Virus record (IMG/VR): IMGVR_UViG_3300036945_000541
Span: 1-45,393 of that record
DNA length: 45,393 bases
Direction: 5' to 3' (one strand)
From: a virus
Shown here: in pieces, positions 10,962-32,725 of the stretch
Position numbering within the stretch: position 1 is the first letter of the stretch
Layout of the letters: every line of letters begins with the position of its first letter
Notes under the pieces: generated by a model
The model's database searches: none
Seen by the model: the letters and a program-made list of their open reading frames with translations, nothing else
Told to the model about the DNA's origin: nothing
Translations under genes and position numbers: made by a program

Positions 10962-12998
10962 TCAAAAAACAACGTCCGAAACATGCCCCCAATCCGGCCC
11001 GGCTTCGGCGTCCGCAATGACCGGAATCAAAAGCTTCATGCAATTTTCCATGATTCGTTTGATTTCCCGAAAGCCCGCTTCCGCTTCACGCCCGCCGGGG
11101 TCCGAAAAATCAAGTTCATCATGAACCGTTAGGCGTGGGACGCCGGTCACGGCAAAGACGCCGGACTTCCAACATTCCAACATTGCCAGTTTCATCATAT
11201 CGGCGGCGGACCCTTGAAGTTTCCGATTCAAAGCCTTATGCAACATTGCCCGCCGAATGTCCCCGCCGTAAGCTTGGGACGCTTGCCAGTAAGGCAAAGC
11301 CGGTGAACGTTCCCCATCGTTCCAAGCGTCCGGTTCCCACAAATCAAACCGGGACCGCCGCCCCAAGATTGTGGAAATCGTCCCATAGTTCCGCGCCTCT
11401 TCCGTGCAACTTTCCATTGTTGCTTTGGCGTAAGGCGCGGCGGAATGATACGCTTCAAAGAATTCTTCCCCTTCCGTTTCGGATAGGTTCAAGGAAGATA
11501 AAAGTTTGGGAATCCCCATCCCGTAAATCAACCCGAAGTTGATGGTCTTGATTGGCTTCCGCGAAATTTCCCGGCGCAAGATACGTTGAACCATGTCTTG
11601 CGTGTGAACATGGTAATCCGTCCGGGGGTCCCGGTTGTATTGCGCCCGCAAGTCATCCGCGCCGGGGCCGGTTGCGAAATGCGCAAGAAAGCGGTATTCA
11701 ATTTGTGAATAGTCAAACTTGACCCAACGCCTATGACCGGCGTCCGGGATGAACATTCCCCGCATTTGCGGCGCAAGTTCTTCGTCCCGGCTTGGGATGT
11801 TTTGAAGATTGGGGGTTGACGATGAAAACCGCCCGGAACGCGTCCCGCCTTCGTCCGCCCGCATTGGGTGGAACTGGCAAAAAATCTTGCCGTTGACATG
11901 GCTTCCCAAAATATAAGATTCCAGAAAGGTCCCGCGAAGTTTTGAAATCTTGCGGATTTCCCCCACCCGGTCCGCAATTTCAATTCCGGCCAATGATTCA
12001 AGAAAGGGCTTTGTGATTGACGGCTTGCGGGTCTTTTCCGTTAGGGGGTAACGTATCCCCAAACGGTCCAACGCCGGGGCCAAGCTTTCGGCGGCGTTCA
12101 CGTTCACTTGATACCCGCAAAGATGATTCAACGCGGCTTGTTCTTCGTATTCGCGGCGTTGAAGGACTTCCCGCAAGGCTTCCGCTTTCGGAAGGTCAAC
12201 GGACACGCCCGCAAAACGCATTTCAAGCAACAAGGGCAAAAGGGCGCATTCCATGTTGAACAAATCAAGCAACCCTTCCGCCCGCAAAAGGCTTTCTTGT
12301 TTTTCCCAAACCCGAAGGGGAAGGTCAACGTCACTTTCCGCGTATGGTCCCACAAGGCGGGCCGGGGTCTTGTAAAGGAATTTTCGGGCTTCACCCGTTG
12401 CCGGTCCGCCGTAAGCCGCCGCAATCCATTCGTAAAGCCTTGCTGAATCTTTCCCTTCCTTCAAGTATTTCACGCCCAAAACTTCAAGGGCGGTCCGCGC
12501 CGTTTCGTCAAGCAAGGCTTCGGCAAATTGAACGTCAATCAACCGCCCGGCAACGTTGATTCCCTCTTGCCGAAGCCAACCCAAATCATAAAGCAAATTT
12601 GCCCCAACCTTGGGTTGATGGGACCGGGAAAATTCATGTCTTGCCCAAGCAAAAACGGCGGACGGATTGCAATTCCATTCCGGTTCCATTTCATGCCGCA
12701 AGGGGAAATACCAACGCCCGCCGTCTTCGGTTCCAACGGCAAGCCCTATGACGTGACCCTTGCCACGCGCCCAACCCGGACCCTTGCCGGAAATCGTTTC
12801 CCCGAAGGGGTCCTTGAAGTCCGCAAGTTCCGGGTCCCATGTTTCAAGGTCAAATGAAAGGGTCCTTGCCGGGGCAAGGTTGGGGAAGGCAACCGGCGGC
12901 TTCCAACCAGTTGCGGGAATCGGCGGGATTTCCCGGACCCTTTCAATTTGGGGGCGTTTCGTTTCTTCCCATAGCAAGCCCAAGGCGTCTTTTCTCAT
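10962..12998 (-). CDS. DNA polymerase, family A, with 3'-5' exonuclease
   Basis: The product has 678 residues and replicates the phage genome. The exonuclease domain is intact: Exo I D50/E52 in FDLETW, Exo II in ANLLYDLG (about 133-140), Exo III in YAESDVDLPLRVW (about 219-231). Polymerase motif A is FDYSQIEYR with D429; motif B is KTINFGLIYGMG (about 484-495) with Phe at the dNTP-discriminating position; motif C is VHDELD (625-630). No 5'-3' exonuclease domain is present, as in other phage Pol A enzymes. The stop of the upstream clamp gene lies in the same TTTTTGATATATC that immediately precedes this ATG. Clamp and polymerase are therefore adjacent and presumably co-expressed. Confidence 0.95.
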   Translation of the reverse strand: MRKDALGLLWEETKRPQIERVREIPPIPATGWKPPVAFPNLAPARTLSFDLETWDPELADFKDPFGETISGKGPGWARGKGHVIGLAVGTEDGGRWYFPLRHEMEPEWNCNPSAVFAWARHEFSRSHQPKVGANLLYDLGWLRQEGINVAGRLIDVQFAEALLDETARTALEVLGVKYLKEGKDSARLYEWIAAAYGGPATGEARKFLYKTPARLVGPYAESDVDLPLRVWEKQESLLRAEGLLDLFNMECALLPLLLEMRFAGVSVDLPKAEALREVLQRREYEEQAALNHLCGYQVNVNAAESLAPALDRLGIRYPLTEKTRKPSITKPFLESLAGIEIADRVGEIRKISKLRGTFLESYILGSHVNGKIFCQFHPMRADEGGTRSGRFSSSTPNLQNIPSRDEELAPQMRGMFIPDAGHRRWVKFDYSQIEYRFLAHFATGPGADDLRAQYNRDPRTDYHVHTQDMVQRILRREISRKPIKTINFGLIYGMGIPKLLSSLNLSETEGEEFFEAYHSAAPYAKATMESCTEEARNYGTISTILGRRSRFDLWEPDAWNDGERSPALPYWQASQAYGGDIRRAMLHKALNRKLQGSAADMMKLAMLECWKSGVFAVTGVPRLTVHDELDFSDPGGREAEAGFREIKRIMENCMKLLIPVIADAEAGPDWGHVSDVVF

Positions 12999-13010
12999 GA
13001 TATATCAAAA
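12999..13010 (-). promoter_or_regulatory. GATATATC element abutting the polymerase start codon
   Basis: On the minus strand TTTTTGATATATC is followed directly by ATG; the TGA inside it is the clamp stop codon. The same TATATC-ATG junction precedes the clamp, MazG-like and DUF669-like genes. There is no Shine-Dalgarno sequence. Role unknown: translation-start element or operator. Confidence 0.4.
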
Positions 13011-14078
13011 AGGAATTTCACCGGATGCAACCAATTCATCCCAAGTTCTTTGTTCTTCGGGGGTCTTCGGGGGAAGGGGTGGGGGTGGAACGTAAGGGGC
13101 AACCGGGCCGGGGTCAATCATTCCGCCAATCACGCCCCGGACGCCTTCCCCGTAGAAAGGGACCGGGCGCGGATAGTTGGCAAAACCCACCTTGGAAGCA
13201 ACGCCACGCAAGCCCAAGATTTGCCCGGCTTGGAAGACGCCCGCGCCGGGGGACGCTGGCAAGGCAAGGGACGTTCCCGGCGCGTCCGGGCGGCTTGTGG
13301 ATACTTCCCCCGGATGAAAGCGGACCCGGTTCATTTCGTCCGTGAAGGGGGCCAACTTTTCAACGTCATTCAAAAGGGCTTCAAGGTCCGCGCCTTGGGT
13401 CCAAGGTCCCTTGAACGTTTCCGCTTCCGTGAAGATTCTTTGAAGGTCCGGCCATTTGTGAACCGTTGTTTGGCAAGCAATCCAAGCCCCGCCGGGAAGG
13501 TGGAAGGTCACTTGATGGGATTCAACTTGGACGGAATGGGGTTCAATCTTCAACCGTATCAATTCCTTGATTGCGTCCGTTGGTAAATGCGCAATGACCG
13601 GGAAGGCAACCGGCAACCAATGTTCAATGATTGATATATTGTTGGTTGCAAAGGCGGAATTGTTGACGAAAAGGACCCCACAAGCCCAAGGGCGCAATTC
13701 GTCCGTTGATACGAAGGGCAAAAGCCTTTTCAACACGGGGACGATGGGGGCGGAAAGGGGGAAGGTTTGGCCGGTGGGTTGGTTGACCGGGAAGCGGTCC
13801 GCGTCCGCGCAATCAACCGTTGACTTGAACCGCCCGGACCGGACCAGCAAACGCCCCTTGTCCAAGGTCAACGCAATGGTCCCTTCACACGCGGCAATTG
13901 CCTTGAAGAATTGCATTGCTTGGGGGGCGCAATCCAAATCAACCGGCAAGGGGGCTTGAATAGTCAATTGCCCGTTGGTTGCCGTGACCGTCCGGTTGAC
14001 AATTCGGAAATGTTGAAGCGTGGGTTGAAGGTCATTCCGACAAACCGCCGCCCGGACAAATTTCAAGGTTTCAAGCAT
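13005..14078 (-). CDS. Sliding clamp, DNA polymerase III beta-subunit homologue
   Basis: The product has 357 residues, close to the usual beta-clamp length. The N-terminus (MLETLKFVRAAVCRND, then FRIVNRTVTATNGQLTIQAP) is typical of phage-encoded beta clamps, in which a pair of strands carries a TNGxL turn. It should ring the DNA and give processivity to the adjacent family A polymerase. The C-terminal 40 residues are Pro-rich (PYVPPPPLPPKTPEEQ) and end in ASGEIPF; these could be a partner-binding tail. The start ATG follows TTATATC with no spacer, itself preceded by a strong terminator. I rate the family assignment likely, not certain. Confidence 0.75.
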   Translation of the reverse strand: MLETLKFVRAAVCRNDLQPTLQHFRIVNRTVTATNGQLTIQAPLPVDLDCAPQAMQFFKAIAACEGTIALTLDKGRLLVRSGRFKSTVDCADADRFPVNQPTGQTFPLSAPIVPVLKRLLPFVSTDELRPWACGVLFVNNSAFATNNISIIEHWLPVAFPVIAHLPTDAIKELIRLKIEPHSVQVESHQVTFHLPGGAWIACQTTVHKWPDLQRIFTEAETFKGPWTQGADLEALLNDVEKLAPFTDEMNRVRFHPGEVSTSRPDAPGTSLALPASPGAGVFQAGQILGLRGVASKVGFANYPRPVPFYGEGVRGVIGGMIDPGPVAPYVPPPPLPPKTPEEQRTWDELVASGEIPF

Positions 14079-15554: not shown

Positions 15555-15615
15555 GCGAATTCTTCAATCTTTTTGATATTTCTTTTCCGCCTTTGATTTT
15601 CAACGCTTTACGGGG

Positions 15616-15840
15616 TCAAAAAGGAACCGGGTCAAACGCCGGACACGCTTCAACAATAGTCCGGGCCGGGGGCCGGGCGTTCCACTTGCCGCAAATTTCG
15701 GTTTGCTCATTGAAAAAGTGACAATCAAGACACGTCTTGCCCCAACCTTGCTTTTCAATGACCAGTTGCCCAACGCGGGCAAACAAGGTTTCAAGGGAAG
15801 CGGTTTCTTGCGGGGTCAATTTGATTGCGGGGTTGTTCAT
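15616..15840 (-). CDS. Small Cys-rich, possibly zinc-binding protein (74 aa)
   Basis: The product has 74 residues; its ATG overlaps the helicase stop (ATGA). Four cysteines (C37, C40, C50, C66) in a CxxC-x9-C-x15-C pattern could bind zinc, with aromatic residues around them (CLDCHFFNEQTEIC). The N-terminal half is a predicted amphipathic helix. Coupling to the helicase suggests an accessory role in replication or recombination. No family recognised. Confidence 0.6.
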   Translation of the reverse strand: MNNPAIKLTPQETASLETLFARVGQLVIEKQGWGKTCLDCHFFNEQTEICGKWNARPPARTIVEACPAFDPVPF

Positions 15841-17564
15841 GCGGGGGAAGATTGAAGGTTGGCGGGCGTGTTGTCAAATTCGCGGAACATGATTTGCGGA
15901 TGCTGGCGGTTTATCCAAACGCGGACGCGTTGGGGTTCCGTCAATGAACCGGTCCGCGCAAGGGCTTCGTCAACGGTTTGGGGGATGGTCAAGCCCGGCC
16001 CCCCGGCTTCAAGCCAAAATTGACGCGCCGAAGCCTTTGCCGCCCCTTCATGTTCAAAGCAAACGTGTTCCGTGAAGCTTCGTATTCCGCAATCGTATGA
16101 AACCCGCATGTTGGGCTTGGCGGACTTGAAAATTGCGGACCGCTTCCCCATGAACGGGACGTGTTTTGAATAGGTCACGCCCGTGACGTGAAACCATTCC
16201 GTCACGGGTTCCTTGGGGGCTTCGTCAACCGGGTTCCCGGCAATCAAGGCGTCTTCCGAAGCTTCACGTTCAAGCTTCACCTTGAAAGGGAATTCCGCCC
16301 CGCATTCGCAACAATGGCGGGCGGAAACATGGTTGAAGGTCATGCAAGTTGCGCAAACCTTCGCGGGAACGTCCCCCTTGGGTCCCTTGCCTTTGGTCTT
16401 CGGTTTCTTCGGGTCATTGATGGGACCCAAGCGGCGCGTATTGCCCGCGAAGTCCAACACAAGACAATTGCGCTTTGGCCCGCTCATAATACAAGAAAGC
16501 CGCCCTTCAATTGTGGAAATGTCAAAGCCGGGAAGCCAAAGCGGGCGCGTTCCGCGTCCCAACATTTGAACCCACAAACCGGGGGACGCCGTGGGACGCA
16601 ATACGGCAATCATATCAATCCCCGGAAAGTCAAAACCAGTTGTGAAGACGCCGTTGTTGACAAGGGCGCGGATTTCCCCGGACTTGAACGCCGCAACCGC
16701 TTCGTCCCTTGCTTCGTCCCCGCTTTTGCTATGAATGGCAACGGCGGAAATCCCCATTTCGGAAAGGGTCAAAGCAACATGTTCCGCGTGTTGAATGCCG
16801 CTTGCGAATACAAGCCAAGATTTGCGGTCCGTTCCATACGCAACCATTTCTTCACACGCGGCGCGGGTGATTGCTTCCTTGTCAACGGCGGCGGCAAGGT
16901 CCTTTGCGTTGAAGTCCCCGGCGGTCATCTTGACGCCGGAAACGTCAAATTCCGCTTTCATCTTTTTGGGGACCAACGGGGCAAGATACCCTTCCGCAAT
17001 CAACTTGTTGAATTCGTCCCGTGAAGTTATATCAAAGCAAATGTCCGAAAAAAGCCCGCCGGGTTCAACAATCATTCCTTGCCCCAACCGGTAAGGCGTG
17101 GCGGTCAACCCGGCAATTTTCAAGAGCGGATTGGAACGCTTCAAGGCGTTGATAAATCTTTGGTATTGGGTTGTTTCCTTTGCGCTTACCGTGTGACATT
17201 CGTCAATCAAGACCAAATCAACCCGCCCGAATAGTTCCGGGCGTTTGGCAACGGAACCAATCCCGCAAAACGTGGCGGCGCGTCCAAGGTCCCGCCGCCG
17301 AAGACCAGCGGAAAAGATACCGGCGGGGGCGGTTGGCCATAGTTCAAGCAACTTTTCAAAGTTTTGCCCAACAAGCTCTTTGACGTGGGTCAATACAAGA
17401 ATCCGCGTCCCCGGATATTGCAACAACGCCCGGCGGATGAATTCGGCAATGACAAGGCTTTTGCCGGTCCCGGTTGGCATGGCAACAACGGGGTTGCCCG
17501 TGTTGTTCATCCAATAATCAAACAAGGCTTGGACCGCCGCCAATTGATACGGACGAAGCTTCAT
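15837..17564 (-). CDS. Superfamily 2 DNA/RNA helicase (DEAH/RAD3-like) with Cys cluster
   Basis: The start at 17564 (MKLRPYQLAAVQALF, a Q-motif-like beginning) is chosen because it makes an ATGA overlap with the nuclease stop; the product has 575 residues. Walker A is MPTGTGKS (29-36), motif II DECH (121-124), motif III TATP (154-157) and motif VI QMLGRGTR (333-340), so both RecA-like lobes are complete. After the helicase core, residues 404-421 hold CATC-x10-CCEC, a probable zinc ribbon, and then a unique domain of about 150 residues. It is coupled to a RecB/Cas4-like nuclease upstream and a Cys-rich protein downstream, suggesting a helicase-nuclease unit for replication or recombination. 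Confidence 0.92.
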   Translation of the reverse strand: MKLRPYQLAAVQALFDYWMNNTGNPVVAMPTGTGKSLVIAEFIRRALLQYPGTRILVLTHVKELVGQNFEKLLELWPTAPAGIFSAGLRRRDLGRAATFCGIGSVAKRPELFGRVDLVLIDECHTVSAKETTQYQRFINALKRSNPLLKIAGLTATPYRLGQGMIVEPGGLFSDICFDITSRDEFNKLIAEGYLAPLVPKKMKAEFDVSGVKMTAGDFNAKDLAAAVDKEAITRAACEEMVAYGTDRKSWLVFASGIQHAEHVALTLSEMGISAVAIHSKSGDEARDEAVAAFKSGEIRALVNNGVFTTGFDFPGIDMIAVLRPTASPGLWVQMLGRGTRPLWLPGFDISTIEGRLSCIMSGPKRNCLVLDFAGNTRRLGPINDPKKPKTKGKGPKGDVPAKVCATCMTFNHVSARHCCECGAEFPFKVKLEREASEDALIAGNPVDEAPKEPVTEWFHVTGVTYSKHVPFMGKRSAIFKSAKPNMRVSYDCGIRSFTEHVCFEHEGAAKASARQFWLEAGGPGLTIPQTVDEALARTGSLTEPQRVRVWINRQHPQIMFREFDNTPANLQSSPA

Positions 17565-22375: not shown

Positions 22376-22466
22376 TGCCGGGGGTTGGTTGATTTTTCAT
22401 TTGGGGCTTGCGTTGCCGGATTACGTCCCCCTTATTTTCCAGCGTAAGCCAACCCGCAAGCAAAAA
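22376..22466. promoter_or_regulatory. Divergent intergenic control region
   Basis: A 91-bp gap separates the leftward recombination/replication operon from the rightward HTH/primase operon. It contains TTGATTTTTCATTTGGGG (22390-22407) and an AT-rich TTATTTTCC (22431-22439). No exact TTGATATATCAA is present. Two early promoters must lie here or just inside the flanking genes. The adjacent HTH protein is the obvious candidate regulator. Confidence 0.45.
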
Positions 22467-22667
22467 GTGAAAAAAGAAATTCCACCCGGCAACCTTTACC
22501 CCCAAGCCCTTGAAATATCAAGGGCGTGGTCCCTTGAAGAACTTTACGAAAAAACGAAATTGCCGATTTCTTGGCTTCGTAAGTTCCGGCAAGGCGCAAT
22601 CCCAACCCCTTCCGTTCAACGCGTTGAATTGATTATTGTTTCCTTTACGCCCGAAGCCAAACCATGA
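22467..22667 (+). CDS. Small HTH DNA-binding protein (Cro-like), 66 aa
   Basis: The GTG at 22467 (VKKEIPPGNLYPQALEIS) is preferred because an earlier ATG (22344) would run antisense into the divergent gene. The core SLEELYEKTKLPISWLRKFR followed by GAIPTPSVQRVELI has the spacing of a Cro/CI or XRE-type helix-turn-helix (helix, sharp turn, recognition helix, then Gly and Pro-Ser-Val). At 66 residues it could be a transcription switch for the divergent promoters. It is joined to the primase-helicase by ATGA. Confidence 0.65.
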   Translation: MKKEIPPGNLYPQALEISRAWSLEELYEKTKLPISWLRKFRQGAIPTPSVQRVELIIVSFTPEAKP

Positions 22668-24955
22668 ACCCACTTTTTGAAAACATTCCGCCGGAACTTC
22701 GCGCCCTTCCACAATGGGTTTGCGCTGGTTCCGACAAGATACCAGTGAACCCCCGGACCGGCCAACGGGCGGACCCGGCCAACCCCGCAACCGGCGGAAC
22801 ATTCGCGGAAGCGGTTCAAGCGGGAATGAAACATGTTGGCTTCATTCTTGGGTTGAATGATCCTTTTGCAATCATTGACTTGGACAACCCTTTTGAACGG
22901 GTCCTTGCCGGGGTCAAATCGGATATTGTGGAAGGGGACGCGGACTTTCCCCAAGCCCTTGAAATTGCCGCCCGTCATCAAAAGATTTTGGAAGCGTTCC
23001 CAACTTACGCGGAACTTTCACAAAGCGGGAAGGGCGTTCATTTGGTCATGAAGGGGGTCTTGCCTTGCGGGGTCCGCCGGGACAAGGTGGAACTTTACGC
23101 AAATCAAAGATATATCATTTTCACGGGGAACGTCTTGCGCAATGCCGCCGTCAATGATTGCCAAGAAAACCTTGCCGAATTGTTCCGTCAAATCGGTTCC
23201 CTTGTTGATGATTCCGGGGAACTAATTGAAGAGGAAGAAACCCAACCGGACGCTTCAATTTGGGCAATGGCAACACGGGCAAGCAACGCGGAAAAGTTTG
23301 TTGCGTTGTGTCAAGGTGAGTGGTCCGGCTTGGGGTATCCGTCCCAAAGTGAAGCGGATTACGCCTTGCTTTCAATGTTGGCTTTCTATTCCCGAAGCAA
23401 TGAACAAATCCGGCGCATGTTCCGACAAACCCACCTTGCCAACCGGACGAAGGCAACGCGGAATGATGTTTACTTGAACCGGTCCTTGCGGCGTATCCGG
23501 GCGCGTGAAGCCCCCATTGTTGACGTGTCCGCCCTTGCCTTGATTCCAACCCCACCGGCCCCGGAAGCCGCCCCCAAGCCTTCGGAAATCGTTCTTGAAG
23601 CCTTGCCGGACCAAACGGGCAACCCCTTCGGAAATTACACGTTCCCGCCGGGTCTTGTGGGGGACGTTGCAAGATACGTCCTTTCAAGCGCAATCCGCCC
23701 GGTTCCCGAAGTTGCCCTTGCCGCCGCCCTTGCGCTTTGCGCTGGTATTTGCGCCCGGTCTTACAACATAAGCGGAACCGGCTTGAATCAATATATCATT
23801 GTTTTGGCAAAGACGGGCCGGGGCAAGGAAGGCGCGGCGTCCGGGATTGACCAATTGATTGCCGCCGTCCGGCAAGGGATACCAATGGCGGACCAGTTTC
23901 TAGGACCCGCCGCCTTCGCTTCGGGGCAAGCTCTTGTGAAGGTCCTTGACCGGGTTCCTTGCTTCGTTTCAATCCTTGGGGAATTCGGGTTGACCCTTCA
24001 ACAAATTTGTGACCCCCAAGCCAACCCCGCCCTTGTGATGTTGCGCCGGGTCTTGTTGGACATTTACGCCAAAAGCGGATTTTCAAAGGTGTTGCGTTCT
24101 TCGGTTTATTCGGATTCCGACAAAAACACAAAGGTCATTCAAGCCCCCAACGTTTCCTTGTTGGGTGAATCAACGCCGGAAACCTTTTTCAACGGGCTTG
24201 ATATATCCCATATTGCGGAAGGCTTGATTCCCCGCTTTTCAATTATTGAATACAAGGGACCCCGGCCCGCCACAAATCCAAACGCATTCCACCCGCCGGG
24301 GGAAACGCTGGTTGCCGCCCTTGGGCAATTCATCACGGTTGCCGTGACAACCCAACAAAATCACACGGTTTGCCCGGTCCGCATGGAACCCGAAGCCAAA
24401 ACGATTTTGGACGCATTGAACAATGAAGCGGACCGCCGAATAAATGAAGACGGGTCCGAAGTTGAAGCGGAACTTTGGAACCGGGCGCATTTGAAAGGAT
24501 TGAAGATTGCCGCCTTGATTGCCGCCGGTTGCAACCCCCACGCGCCCGCAATCACCGGGGAAATTGCCGCTTGGGCGGTTGCCTTCGTCCGGCGTGAAAT
24601 CGGCGGAATCATGGAACGTTTCCAAAGCGGGGAAGTTGGCAACGGGGAAGCGAAACAAGAGGCGGAATTGCGCCGGTTGTTCAAACATTTTCAAACCTTG
24701 TCCCCGGAACAACGCCTTCAATACCGTTGCCCGGACGGGTTGCTTGACCGGCAAGTTGTCCCGTTCCAATACTTCAACATTTACACGCGCCGCCTTGCTT
24801 GCTTCAAGAATGACAAACGCGGGGCCGGGCGGGCGTTGGCGGATACGCTGGCAACAATGGTGAAGACGGAAGCCTTTGAAATGATTCCGCTTCAACAATT
24901 GACGAGCGAATTCAAGACCCGTTCCCCCATTTATTACCCCGGCCCGGCATGGTAA
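22664..24955 (+). CDS. Primase-polymerase / DUF3987-type helicase fusion
   Basis: The product has 763 residues. The N-terminal module is PrimPol-like: acidic pair D72/D74 in AIIDLDN, the SGKGVHLV motif (121-128) and a RYIIFTG strand (149-155). Residues about 232-280 (LLSMLAFYSRSNEQIRRMF ... YLNRSLRRI) match the helical domain that follows the PrimPol core in NrS-1-type polymerases. From about residue 325 it resembles DUF3987 helicase-like proteins. The expected P-loop reads AKTGRGKEGA (382-391), with Glu instead of Ser/Thr after the Lys, so ATPase activity is uncertain. It should prime, and perhaps unwind, for the family A polymerase. Confidence 0.8.
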   Translation: MNPLFENIPPELRALPQWVCAGSDKIPVNPRTGQRADPANPATGGTFAEAVQAGMKHVGFILGLNDPFAIIDLDNPFERVLAGVKSDIVEGDADFPQALEIAARHQKILEAFPTYAELSQSGKGVHLVMKGVLPCGVRRDKVELYANQRYIIFTGNVLRNAAVNDCQENLAELFRQIGSLVDDSGELIEEEETQPDASIWAMATRASNAEKFVALCQGEWSGLGYPSQSEADYALLSMLAFYSRSNEQIRRMFRQTHLANRTKATRNDVYLNRSLRRIRAREAPIVDVSALALIPTPPAPEAAPKPSEIVLEALPDQTGNPFGNYTFPPGLVGDVARYVLSSAIRPVPEVALAAALALCAGICARSYNISGTGLNQYIIVLAKTGRGKEGAASGIDQLIAAVRQGIPMADQFLGPAAFASGQALVKVLDRVPCFVSILGEFGLTLQQICDPQANPALVMLRRVLLDIYAKSGFSKVLRSSVYSDSDKNTKVIQAPNVSLLGESTPETFFNGLDISHIAEGLIPRFSIIEYKGPRPATNPNAFHPPGETLVAALGQFITVAVTTQQNHTVCPVRMEPEAKTILDALNNEADRRINEDGSEVEAELWNRAHLKGLKIAALIAAGCNPHAPAITGEIAAWAVAFVRREIGGIMERFQSGEVGNGEAKQEAELRRLFKHFQTLSPEQRLQYRCPDGLLDRQVVPFQYFNIYTRRLACFKNDKRGAGRALADTLATMVKTEAFEMIPLQQLTSEFKTRSPIYYPGPAW

Positions 24956-28507: not shown

Positions 28508-28547
28508 CCCCGTGTTTACCTTTGTTTACCTCTTGTTTACCACGGGG
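28508..28547. repeat. Inverted repeat enclosing the first iterons
   Basis: CCCCGTG (28508-28514) and CACGGGG (28541-28547) are perfect complements and enclose the first three TGTTTACC units; this could form a cruciform or a stem at the edge of the repeat cluster. Confidence 0.6.
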
Positions 28548-28822
28548 TAAACAACGCAACTTGTTGGTTTTCAATGAGTTGCGCGGCTTGTTTACCTTGT
28601 TTACCAGTTTTCCCGGAAAAAGACATTTTCACCCATTCACACGCGGACCGGGGAATTCCCCGCGCGTTCATGAGCGGTTTTTTATTCCTGAAATACGGTA
28701 AACAAGGGTAAACAAGGTAAACAACAATAAATTGATAAATAGAAAGTAAATGAATTTCAATGACTTATGACTTTTTTCTAATTGTTTACCAAAAACGGCC
28801 AAAAGGTAAACAACGGTAAACG
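28513..28822. repeat. Iteron cluster (TGTTTACC), candidate replication origin
   Basis: Eleven exact copies of TGTTTACC or its complement GGTAAACA: forward at 28513, 28523, 28534, 28589, 28598, 28783; reverse at 28546, 28697, 28707, 28716, 28805; plus GGTAAACG at 28815. Neighbouring copies are 9-11 bp apart, about one helical turn. Between the two main groups lie a 14-bp palindrome (28649-28662, around GGGGAATTCCCC) and an AT-rich stretch (about 28723-28783) suitable for unwinding. The region has no credible gene from 28503 to 28851. The layout matches iteron-type origins, with an unknown initiator; the unit is not a DnaA box. A dense operator array is the alternative. Confidence 0.75.
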
Positions 28823-30357: not shown

Positions 30358-30366
30358 AGAAAAAGC

Positions 30367-30395
30367 TTGCCGGGTTGCCGGGGTTGATATATCAA
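30367..30395 (+). promoter_or_regulatory. Candidate promoter within palindrome TTGATATATCAA
   Basis: TTGCCG (30367-30372), 17-bp spacer, TATCAA (30390-30395), then 5 nt to the ATG at 30401. The exact palindrome TTGATATATCAA occupies 30384-30395. The arrangement predicts a leaderless or near-leaderless message. Confidence 0.5.
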
Positions 30396-30400
30396 GGGGC

Positions 30401-30631
30401 ATGTCCGAAGCAATCACCGCAACCGCCCGCGAAGCCGCCCTTGAAATTGTTTTCAGTATTGAAGGGGAAACCGAATCAAACCGTTTTGCCCAAACTATCG
30501 GCGGGCGCGAAGGCTTGACCGAAGCCGAAGCCAAGGCGGAAGTTTTCGCAATGGCAACGCGTTGGGTTGCGGACATGCGGACGCAAGGCTTTGCCATTGC
30601 CGCTTGGGACGCCGCCGGAAACCATTTTTGA
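30401..30631 (+). CDS. Small acidic protein (76 aa), ATGTCC cassette
   Basis: It starts ATGTCCGAA right after the palindromic promoter element. The product has 76 residues, Ala/Glu/Thr-rich and probably all-helical (MSEAITATAREAALEIVFSI, LTEAEAKAEVFAMATRWVAD). An acidic helical protein of this size could be a DNA mimic or adaptor, but no family is recognised. Another palindrome follows about 20 bp after its stop. Confidence 0.55.
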   Translation: MSEAITATAREAALEIVFSIEGETESNRFAQTIGGREGLTEAEAKAEVFAMATRWVADMRTQGFAIAAWDAAGNHF

Positions 30632-32171: not shown

Positions 32172-32210
32172 CCCGGCCCGGTCCCTTCACGGGGGCCGGG
32201 TTTTTTTTTT
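32172..32210 (+). terminator. Rho-independent terminator
   Basis: CCCGGCCC (32172-32179) pairs with GGGCCGGG (32193-32200), followed by ten T (32201-32210). It is the strongest simple terminator in the window. Confidence 0.9.
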
Positions 32211-32222
32211 CATCAAATAACT

Positions 32223-32250
32223 TTGACACGCCCCGGAAAAGATATATCTT
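32223..32250 (+). promoter_or_regulatory. Candidate promoter giving a leaderless message
   Basis: TTGACA (32223-32228), 16-bp spacer, TATCTT (32245-32250), 6 nt to the ATG at 32257. It lies just after a terminator, with GATATATC at 32241-32248. It is the best -35/-10 match in the window. Confidence 0.6.
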
Positions 32251-32256
32251 CCGGGC

Positions 32257-32652
32257 ATGTCCAACGCATCAACAACCGCCCGCCCCGAAATTGCCCAAAC
32301 CATTCTTGCCCAACTTGGGGGAAACAAGTTCCGCGTCATGACCGGCGCAACCAACTTTCTTGACCTTGGGGAAGCCCAAGCCCAAGCCGCCCGCCCGGAA
32401 CATGATTGCCCCGCAATCCCCGCCCGCCTTGGCGGTCTTTCCTTCAAGCTTGGCCGGTTTGCTGGTTTGAAAGTGACCCACGTCCGGGTTGTCCTTACCC
32501 TTGCGGACCTTTACAACGTGGAATTTTTCAACATCCGGGGTTGCAACATGAAGACCCTTGCAACCGTTGAAGGCATTTACGCGGACCAGTTGCGCGAAGT
32601 CTTCACCCGCCAAACCGGGCTTGAAACATCCCTTGGAACAATGCGGGCTTGA
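32257..32652 (+). CDS. Conserved-looking phage protein of unknown function (131 aa)
   Basis: It starts ATGTCCAACGCA, 6 nt after TATCTT. The segments NKFRVMTGATNFLDLG, LSFKLGRF, LTLADLYNVEFFNIRG and VEGIYADQLREVFTRQTGLE resemble a widespread uncharacterised phage protein (pattern GGNKF-x-MTGA ... DLYxVEFxKIRG ... TGLxTSLG). I cannot give a family name and assign no function. It is the last gene before the terminase cluster and, with its own promoter and terminator-flanked unit, is probably highly expressed. Confidence 0.7.
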   Translation: MSNASTTARPEIAQTILAQLGGNKFRVMTGATNFLDLGEAQAQAARPEHDCPAIPARLGGLSFKLGRFAGLKVTHVRVVLTLADLYNVEFFNIRGCNMKTLATVEGIYADQLREVFTRQTGLETSLGTMRA

Positions 32653-32665
32653 TTGTGGGAACCGG

Positions 32666-32706
32666 CCCCACCCCGCGCAAACAAACGCCTTGCGCGGCGC
32701 GTGGGG
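32666..32706. other. Large hairpin upstream of the small terminase gene
   Basis: CCCCAC (32666-32671) with GTGGGG (32701-32706) encloses CCGCGCAA (32673-32680) with TTGCGCGG (32690-32697). No T-tract follows. Its position directly ahead of the terminase genes makes it a candidate packaging (pac) site, or simply a transcription boundary. Confidence 0.5.
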
Positions 32707-32725
32707 GGCGTGGTAGGGCTTCCGC

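Follow-up and report, generated by a model that had tools for sequence, protein, structure and literature searches.

The array of short repeats at 28513-28822 in this viral genome raises the question of what such an array is for and which protein reads it. In the window (the whole 45,393-base stretch of DNA analysed), counted on both strands, the exact 8-mer TGTTTACC/GGTAAACA occurs eleven times, with every copy at 28513-28812; 100 shuffles gave a mean of 1.02 copies of TGTTTACC and a maximum of 5. A twelfth, variant copy lies at 28815 (CGTTTACC, or GGTAAACG as it stands in the minus-strand right outer block). The longer unit GGTAAACAA has ten exact copies, all of them inside the array. Dinucleotide shuffling of the array alone (2000 trials) gave at most six copies of any 8-mer, versus the eleven observed. 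The preliminary description of eleven exact copies and one variant in 310 bp, with no clusters elsewhere, was borne out by these counts. It had also set the unit apart from DnaA boxes, and a DnaA-type origin was rejected here: the array holds no cluster of the TTATCCACA type, its dominant repeated 8-mer being GGTAAACA.

Within runs, the units start 9-13 bp apart (Table 1). Written as GGTAAACAA, their strand order is - - - + - - in the left half and + + + - + + in the right half, with a 100-bp gap between the halves, which are largely mutually inverted (Fisher p 0.08, for the window genome alone). The 14-bp palindrome and the AT-rich stretch reported earlier were both found within the array, the palindrome by direct reading. 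Of all 58-bp segments in the window, the one starting at 28726 has the highest A+T content (83% versus 45% genome-wide), and the AT-rich tract sits off-centre, unlike those of A2 and T25. The array is a dense set of a short unit restricted to a single intergenic region, with inverted blocks and an AT-rich tract. A switch in GC skew, proposed as a check on an origin, is absent at the array; the cumulative skew across the window has its maximum at 22415, at a change in gene orientation. At its start (1-27) the record shows 27 consecutive G, probably a sequencing or assembly artefact.

Table 1 Features of the repeat array, selected genes of the window and arrays in PrimPol-bearing relatives
Feature	Position	Strand	Details
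Left outer block	28513..28541	+	three TGTTTACC at 28513, 28523, 28534; steps 10 and 11 bp
Left-half inverted unit	28546..28553	-	
Left inner block	28589..28605	+	two TGTTTACC, 9 bp apart
Central spacer between inverted inner blocks	28606..28696	.	52% A+T
14-bp palindrome CGGGGAATTCCCCG	28649..28662	.	near centre
Right inner block	28697..28723	-	three GGTAAACA at 28697, 28707, 28716
AT-rich tract	28724..28781	.	candidate unwinding element; 81% A+T
Right-half inverted unit	28783..28790	+	
Right outer block	28805..28822	-	GGTAAACA at 28805, variant GGTAAACG at 28815
NrS-1-like PrimPol, 763 aa, likely initiator	22664..24955	+	primase-polymerase, HBD (PF22763), DUF3987, C-terminal winged helix
Putative HTH protein, 66 aa	22467..22667	+	directly upstream of PrimPol; possible regulator or helper
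Family A polymerase	10962-12998		
Clamp (assumed)	13005-14078		from synteny with relatives, without Pfam match
phiAxp-1 array	begins 12 bp past PrimPol		unit ACCGAAAACA
ART array	5 bp past PrimPol		unit GGGGCAGA
VPv64 and two kin arrays	3-6 bp past PrimPol		unit CCCTATCC
Halfdan array	30363-30596, 28 bp past PrimPol		unit CCTTATA
Me-ZS1 array	about 1.4 kb past PrimPol		unit TGTTCATAA
slur01 array	L037 11484-11761		PrimPol 5' side
Ab_SZ3 array	L039 31287-31571		PrimPol 5' side

The genome encodes an NrS-1-like PrimPol with HBD. Family searches matched the protein to phrog_3022, a family of phage primases (E 4e-196), as well as to DUF3987 and the helix-bundle domain of the NrS-1 polymerase; its N-terminus matches the NrS-1 N300 crystal structures. 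In the AlphaFold2 model (mean pLDDT 86) the N-terminal part again matches N300, and matches to MCM helicases come next (E about 5e-6, 11-14% identity). We read the latter as the DUF3987 half of the protein, predicted to be MCM-like AAA+ (residues about 330-763). The last 70 residues, with the order helix-helix-helix-strand-strand, are predicted to form a winged helix (residues about 691-763). DUF3987 has been predicted to be a helicase, and a role in origin recognition has been suggested for the winged helices of related primases (Kazlauskas et al., PMC5862659). Besides the family A polymerase and the putative clamp, the window codes for an SSB-like and a Sak4-like protein. The array begins 3.6 kb past the end of the PrimPol gene and hence is not located directly 3' of it.

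Related PrimPol proteins are encoded in 408 phage records. Nucleotide search of phage records returned no close relatives of the window, nor did viral-contig searches seeded on single window proteins; the relatives compared here were whole phage genomes together with eighty viral contigs. In 83 loci PrimPol is followed by 350 bp or more; for each, the repeat content of the 350 bp 3' of the gene was ranked among that of the other parts of the locus. In 27 of them this segment fell within the top 5% of its own genome (4 expected; binomial 2e-15, an optimistic value since the 83 loci are partly dependent on one another); by this ranking, a clear array is seen in fewer than half of the PrimPol relatives. 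Within the 27 arrays, 52 of 57 spacings of at most 13 bp connect same-strand units (mode 9 bp) and the strand flips over the largest gap in 20 (median gap 88 bp, p 0.01), counts that describe the set and are no independent test of its existence, the arrays having been picked for repeats. Overall, the arrays of relatives are mostly inverted over a gap of 53-133 bp, with same-strand runs 8-12 bp apart. Their units, 7-10 bp long, are different in nearly every relative and include CCTATCCCC, ACCGAAAACA, GGGGCAGA, CCTTATAC, TGTTCATAA, ACTTACA and AAGGGTAAG.

T25, phi105 and B025 carry arrays at the same place directly 3' of PrimPol; in JCL1032 none was found at this position, and a whole-genome repeat scan revealed no clear array in, for example, Eidolon, VPv62 and PSTCR4. 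Arrays away from the direct 3' position also occur in Me-ZS1, slur01 and Ab_SZ3, the last two lying 5' of the gene, which means that the array has no fixed position. Further repeats were recorded in the contigs. Locus L071 has a second array-like feature at 15583-15679, 8 kb from PrimPol (ATGAACAT twelve times, both strands, 6-14 bp apart). L090 carries AATCGGA eight times at 15936-16079 in 13- and 26-bp steps, on the same contig as a PrimPol-adjacent TATAACA array. Thirteen copies of CAGAACCAG in L043 (38698-38851) lie inside a predicted open reading frame and are probably a coding repeat. Other viral contigs contain tandem pairs of TTGTTTACC, which were set aside: no PrimPol is present in those loci, and the pairs examined read as coding repeats with 9-base periods.

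The array is most probably the replication origin of the phage, with the phage's own PrimPol as initiator. An origin is the best reading given the position, the symmetry and the AT tract of the array, together with the cases of A2 and NrS-1. The earlier proposal of an iteron origin with a phage-encoded initiator is well supported by the relatives, the annotated origin of A2 and the NrS-1 array; the distance of 3.6 kb, the lack of a GC-skew switch and the off-centre AT tract count against the origin and PrimPol reading. Tandem operators, too, can have units of 7-10 bp, and the array, with its unit in this range, lies between co-directional genes, as might an array of operators bound by a transcriptional silencer or regulator. 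We consider such a function improbable, since equivalent arrays follow PrimPol despite different downstream genes, are bidirectional with an AT-rich tract and, in A2, are annotated as an origin. Partition sites can likewise contain bidirectional arrays of short repeats, and the array is followed at about 4.6 kb by a terminase gene. Nevertheless, a packaging (pac/cos) or partition site is very improbable here: the arrays of Escherichia phage Halfdan and of phiAxp-1 are near PrimPol with the terminase 8-11 kb away, and no partition gene was detected among the window proteins searched, a subset of its ORFs.

Which protein reads the unit is a separate matter. The preliminary description had favoured the flanking 51-aa (28347) and 96-aa (28852) proteins as initiators, a proposal that has their position in its favour and that we find scarcely credible. 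Neither protein has a family match, the 96-aa protein has no relative in the viral contigs, and homologues of the two are absent beside the arrays of relatives and from every PrimPol-bearing relative, while PrimPol is present in 105 loci. As judged from these sequence comparisons, PrimPol is likely the better candidate. It is unlikely, though less so, that another protein of the phage reads the unit of the origin and then recruits PrimPol; the most plausible such reader would be the 66-aa HTH protein. Small proteins similar to it precede PrimPol in many relatives, and in RSF1010 the iterons are read by a separate protein, RepC (discussed in PMC4234260). The arrays of NrS-1, A2, T25 and B025, however, adjoin PrimPol genes with no small HTH gene directly upstream; their neighbours code for a CII-like protein or SSB, and the common factor is PrimPol-HBD. 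Within PrimPol, the reading domain was not pinned down by covariation: in 19 genomes there was no signal for any domain, the similarity of the units not tracking the divergence of any of them. The least conserved folded part of the protein is the C-terminal winged helix.

For PrimPol as the initiator, the following steps are proposed. The protein, probably via its C-terminal winged helix, would bind the 8-9-bp units as duplex DNA, so that two PrimPol assemblies would form on the two largely inverted array halves. Their AAA+ rings would melt the adjacent AT-rich tract (28724-28781), and the primase and helix-bundle domains would prime on the exposed strands. The units may also be read as template signals, as the NrS-1 polymerase does in vitro; a winged helix reading the duplex and an HBD reading the template would be a reasonable division of labour. 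Forks would then exit both ways, with extension by PolA and the clamp of the phage.

A broader reading, which we put forward tentatively and regard as somewhat doubtful in its entirety, is that the PrimPol family of hundreds of phages shares an origin architecture (runs of same-strand units with a period of roughly one helical turn, largely inverted over 50-130 bp, with an AT-rich tract) in which the unit has turned over near-completely between genera and may serve both as duplex site for the MCM-like ring and as template signal for the fused primase. If one unit is indeed both binding site and priming signal, a single fused protein could recognise, open and prime the origin. For the window phage, the array represents a concrete, testable candidate origin, and the comparison provides a rule by which candidate origins can be sought in the 408 phage records that encode related PrimPols. 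The origin had been called one of an unusual type. This stands insofar as the open-licence literature searched yielded no report of such arrays from this PrimPol phage group, although a 2017 paper on the recognition site of the NrS-1 polymerase may already note the NrS-1 array; it does not stand insofar as similar arrays recur across the PrimPol family.

Among the closest known systems is Lactobacillus phage A2, in which a GenBank rep_origin (32208-32717, AJ251789.2; function taken from the annotation) lies directly 3' of PrimPol and contains ACGGGAG units in the strand order + + + + - - - around an AT tract. Like the window, A2 combines opposite-strand repeat blocks around an AT-rich tract with a PrimPol-HBD replication protein. 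Unlike the window array at its 3.6-kb distance, the A2 origin adjoins the 3' end of PrimPol; its unit, ACGGGAGGA, is different, and the A2 protein has D5_N/DUF5906/Pox_D5 where the window PrimPol has DUF3987.

Phage NrS-1 (AB746912.1) likewise pairs a homologous PrimPol-HBD with a dense array in which a 9-bp unit, AAGTGTAAC, occurs in both orientations, eleven times in all, at 17062-17371. This array begins 11 bp 3' of PrimPol, whereas that of the window is not adjacent to the gene, and the head, DUF5906 and tail domains of the NrS-1 enzyme differ from those of the window PrimPol. Priming by the NrS-1 polymerase has been shown biochemically to be directed by TTTGGTTA (PMC8718748). This sequence occurs once in the NrS-1 genome, at 17198 within the array and across two neighbouring units, and GTG, the other known site, is part of the array unit, which ties the known recognition sequence to an array beside the gene of its polymerase. 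Recognition of TTTGGTTA and GTG by the NrS-1 enzyme is known from biochemistry, in contrast to the putative recognition of its unit by the window PrimPol.

The archaeal plasmid pRN1 also has an origin-like element and a PrimPol-helicase with a C-terminal winged helix (ORF904). The element lies 3' of the gene and is required for replication, but consists of a long stem-loop and has no iterons (PMC4234260). SaPI and SCCmec elements (Rep and Cch2, respectively) resemble the window in having short iterons, located 3' of the initiator-helicase gene (rep in SaPI) and bound via the C-terminal domain of its product, and the SCCmec primase favours start sites at iterons (PMC7581432); in contrast to the window, their helicases belong to other families and their primase is a separate protein. 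Among the A2-type, NrS-1 and window proteins, the helicase and C-terminal domains differ while PrimPol-HBD is common to all. With respect to these systems, the window array has the composition of a PrimPol-associated iteron origin, but lies apart from the PrimPol gene.
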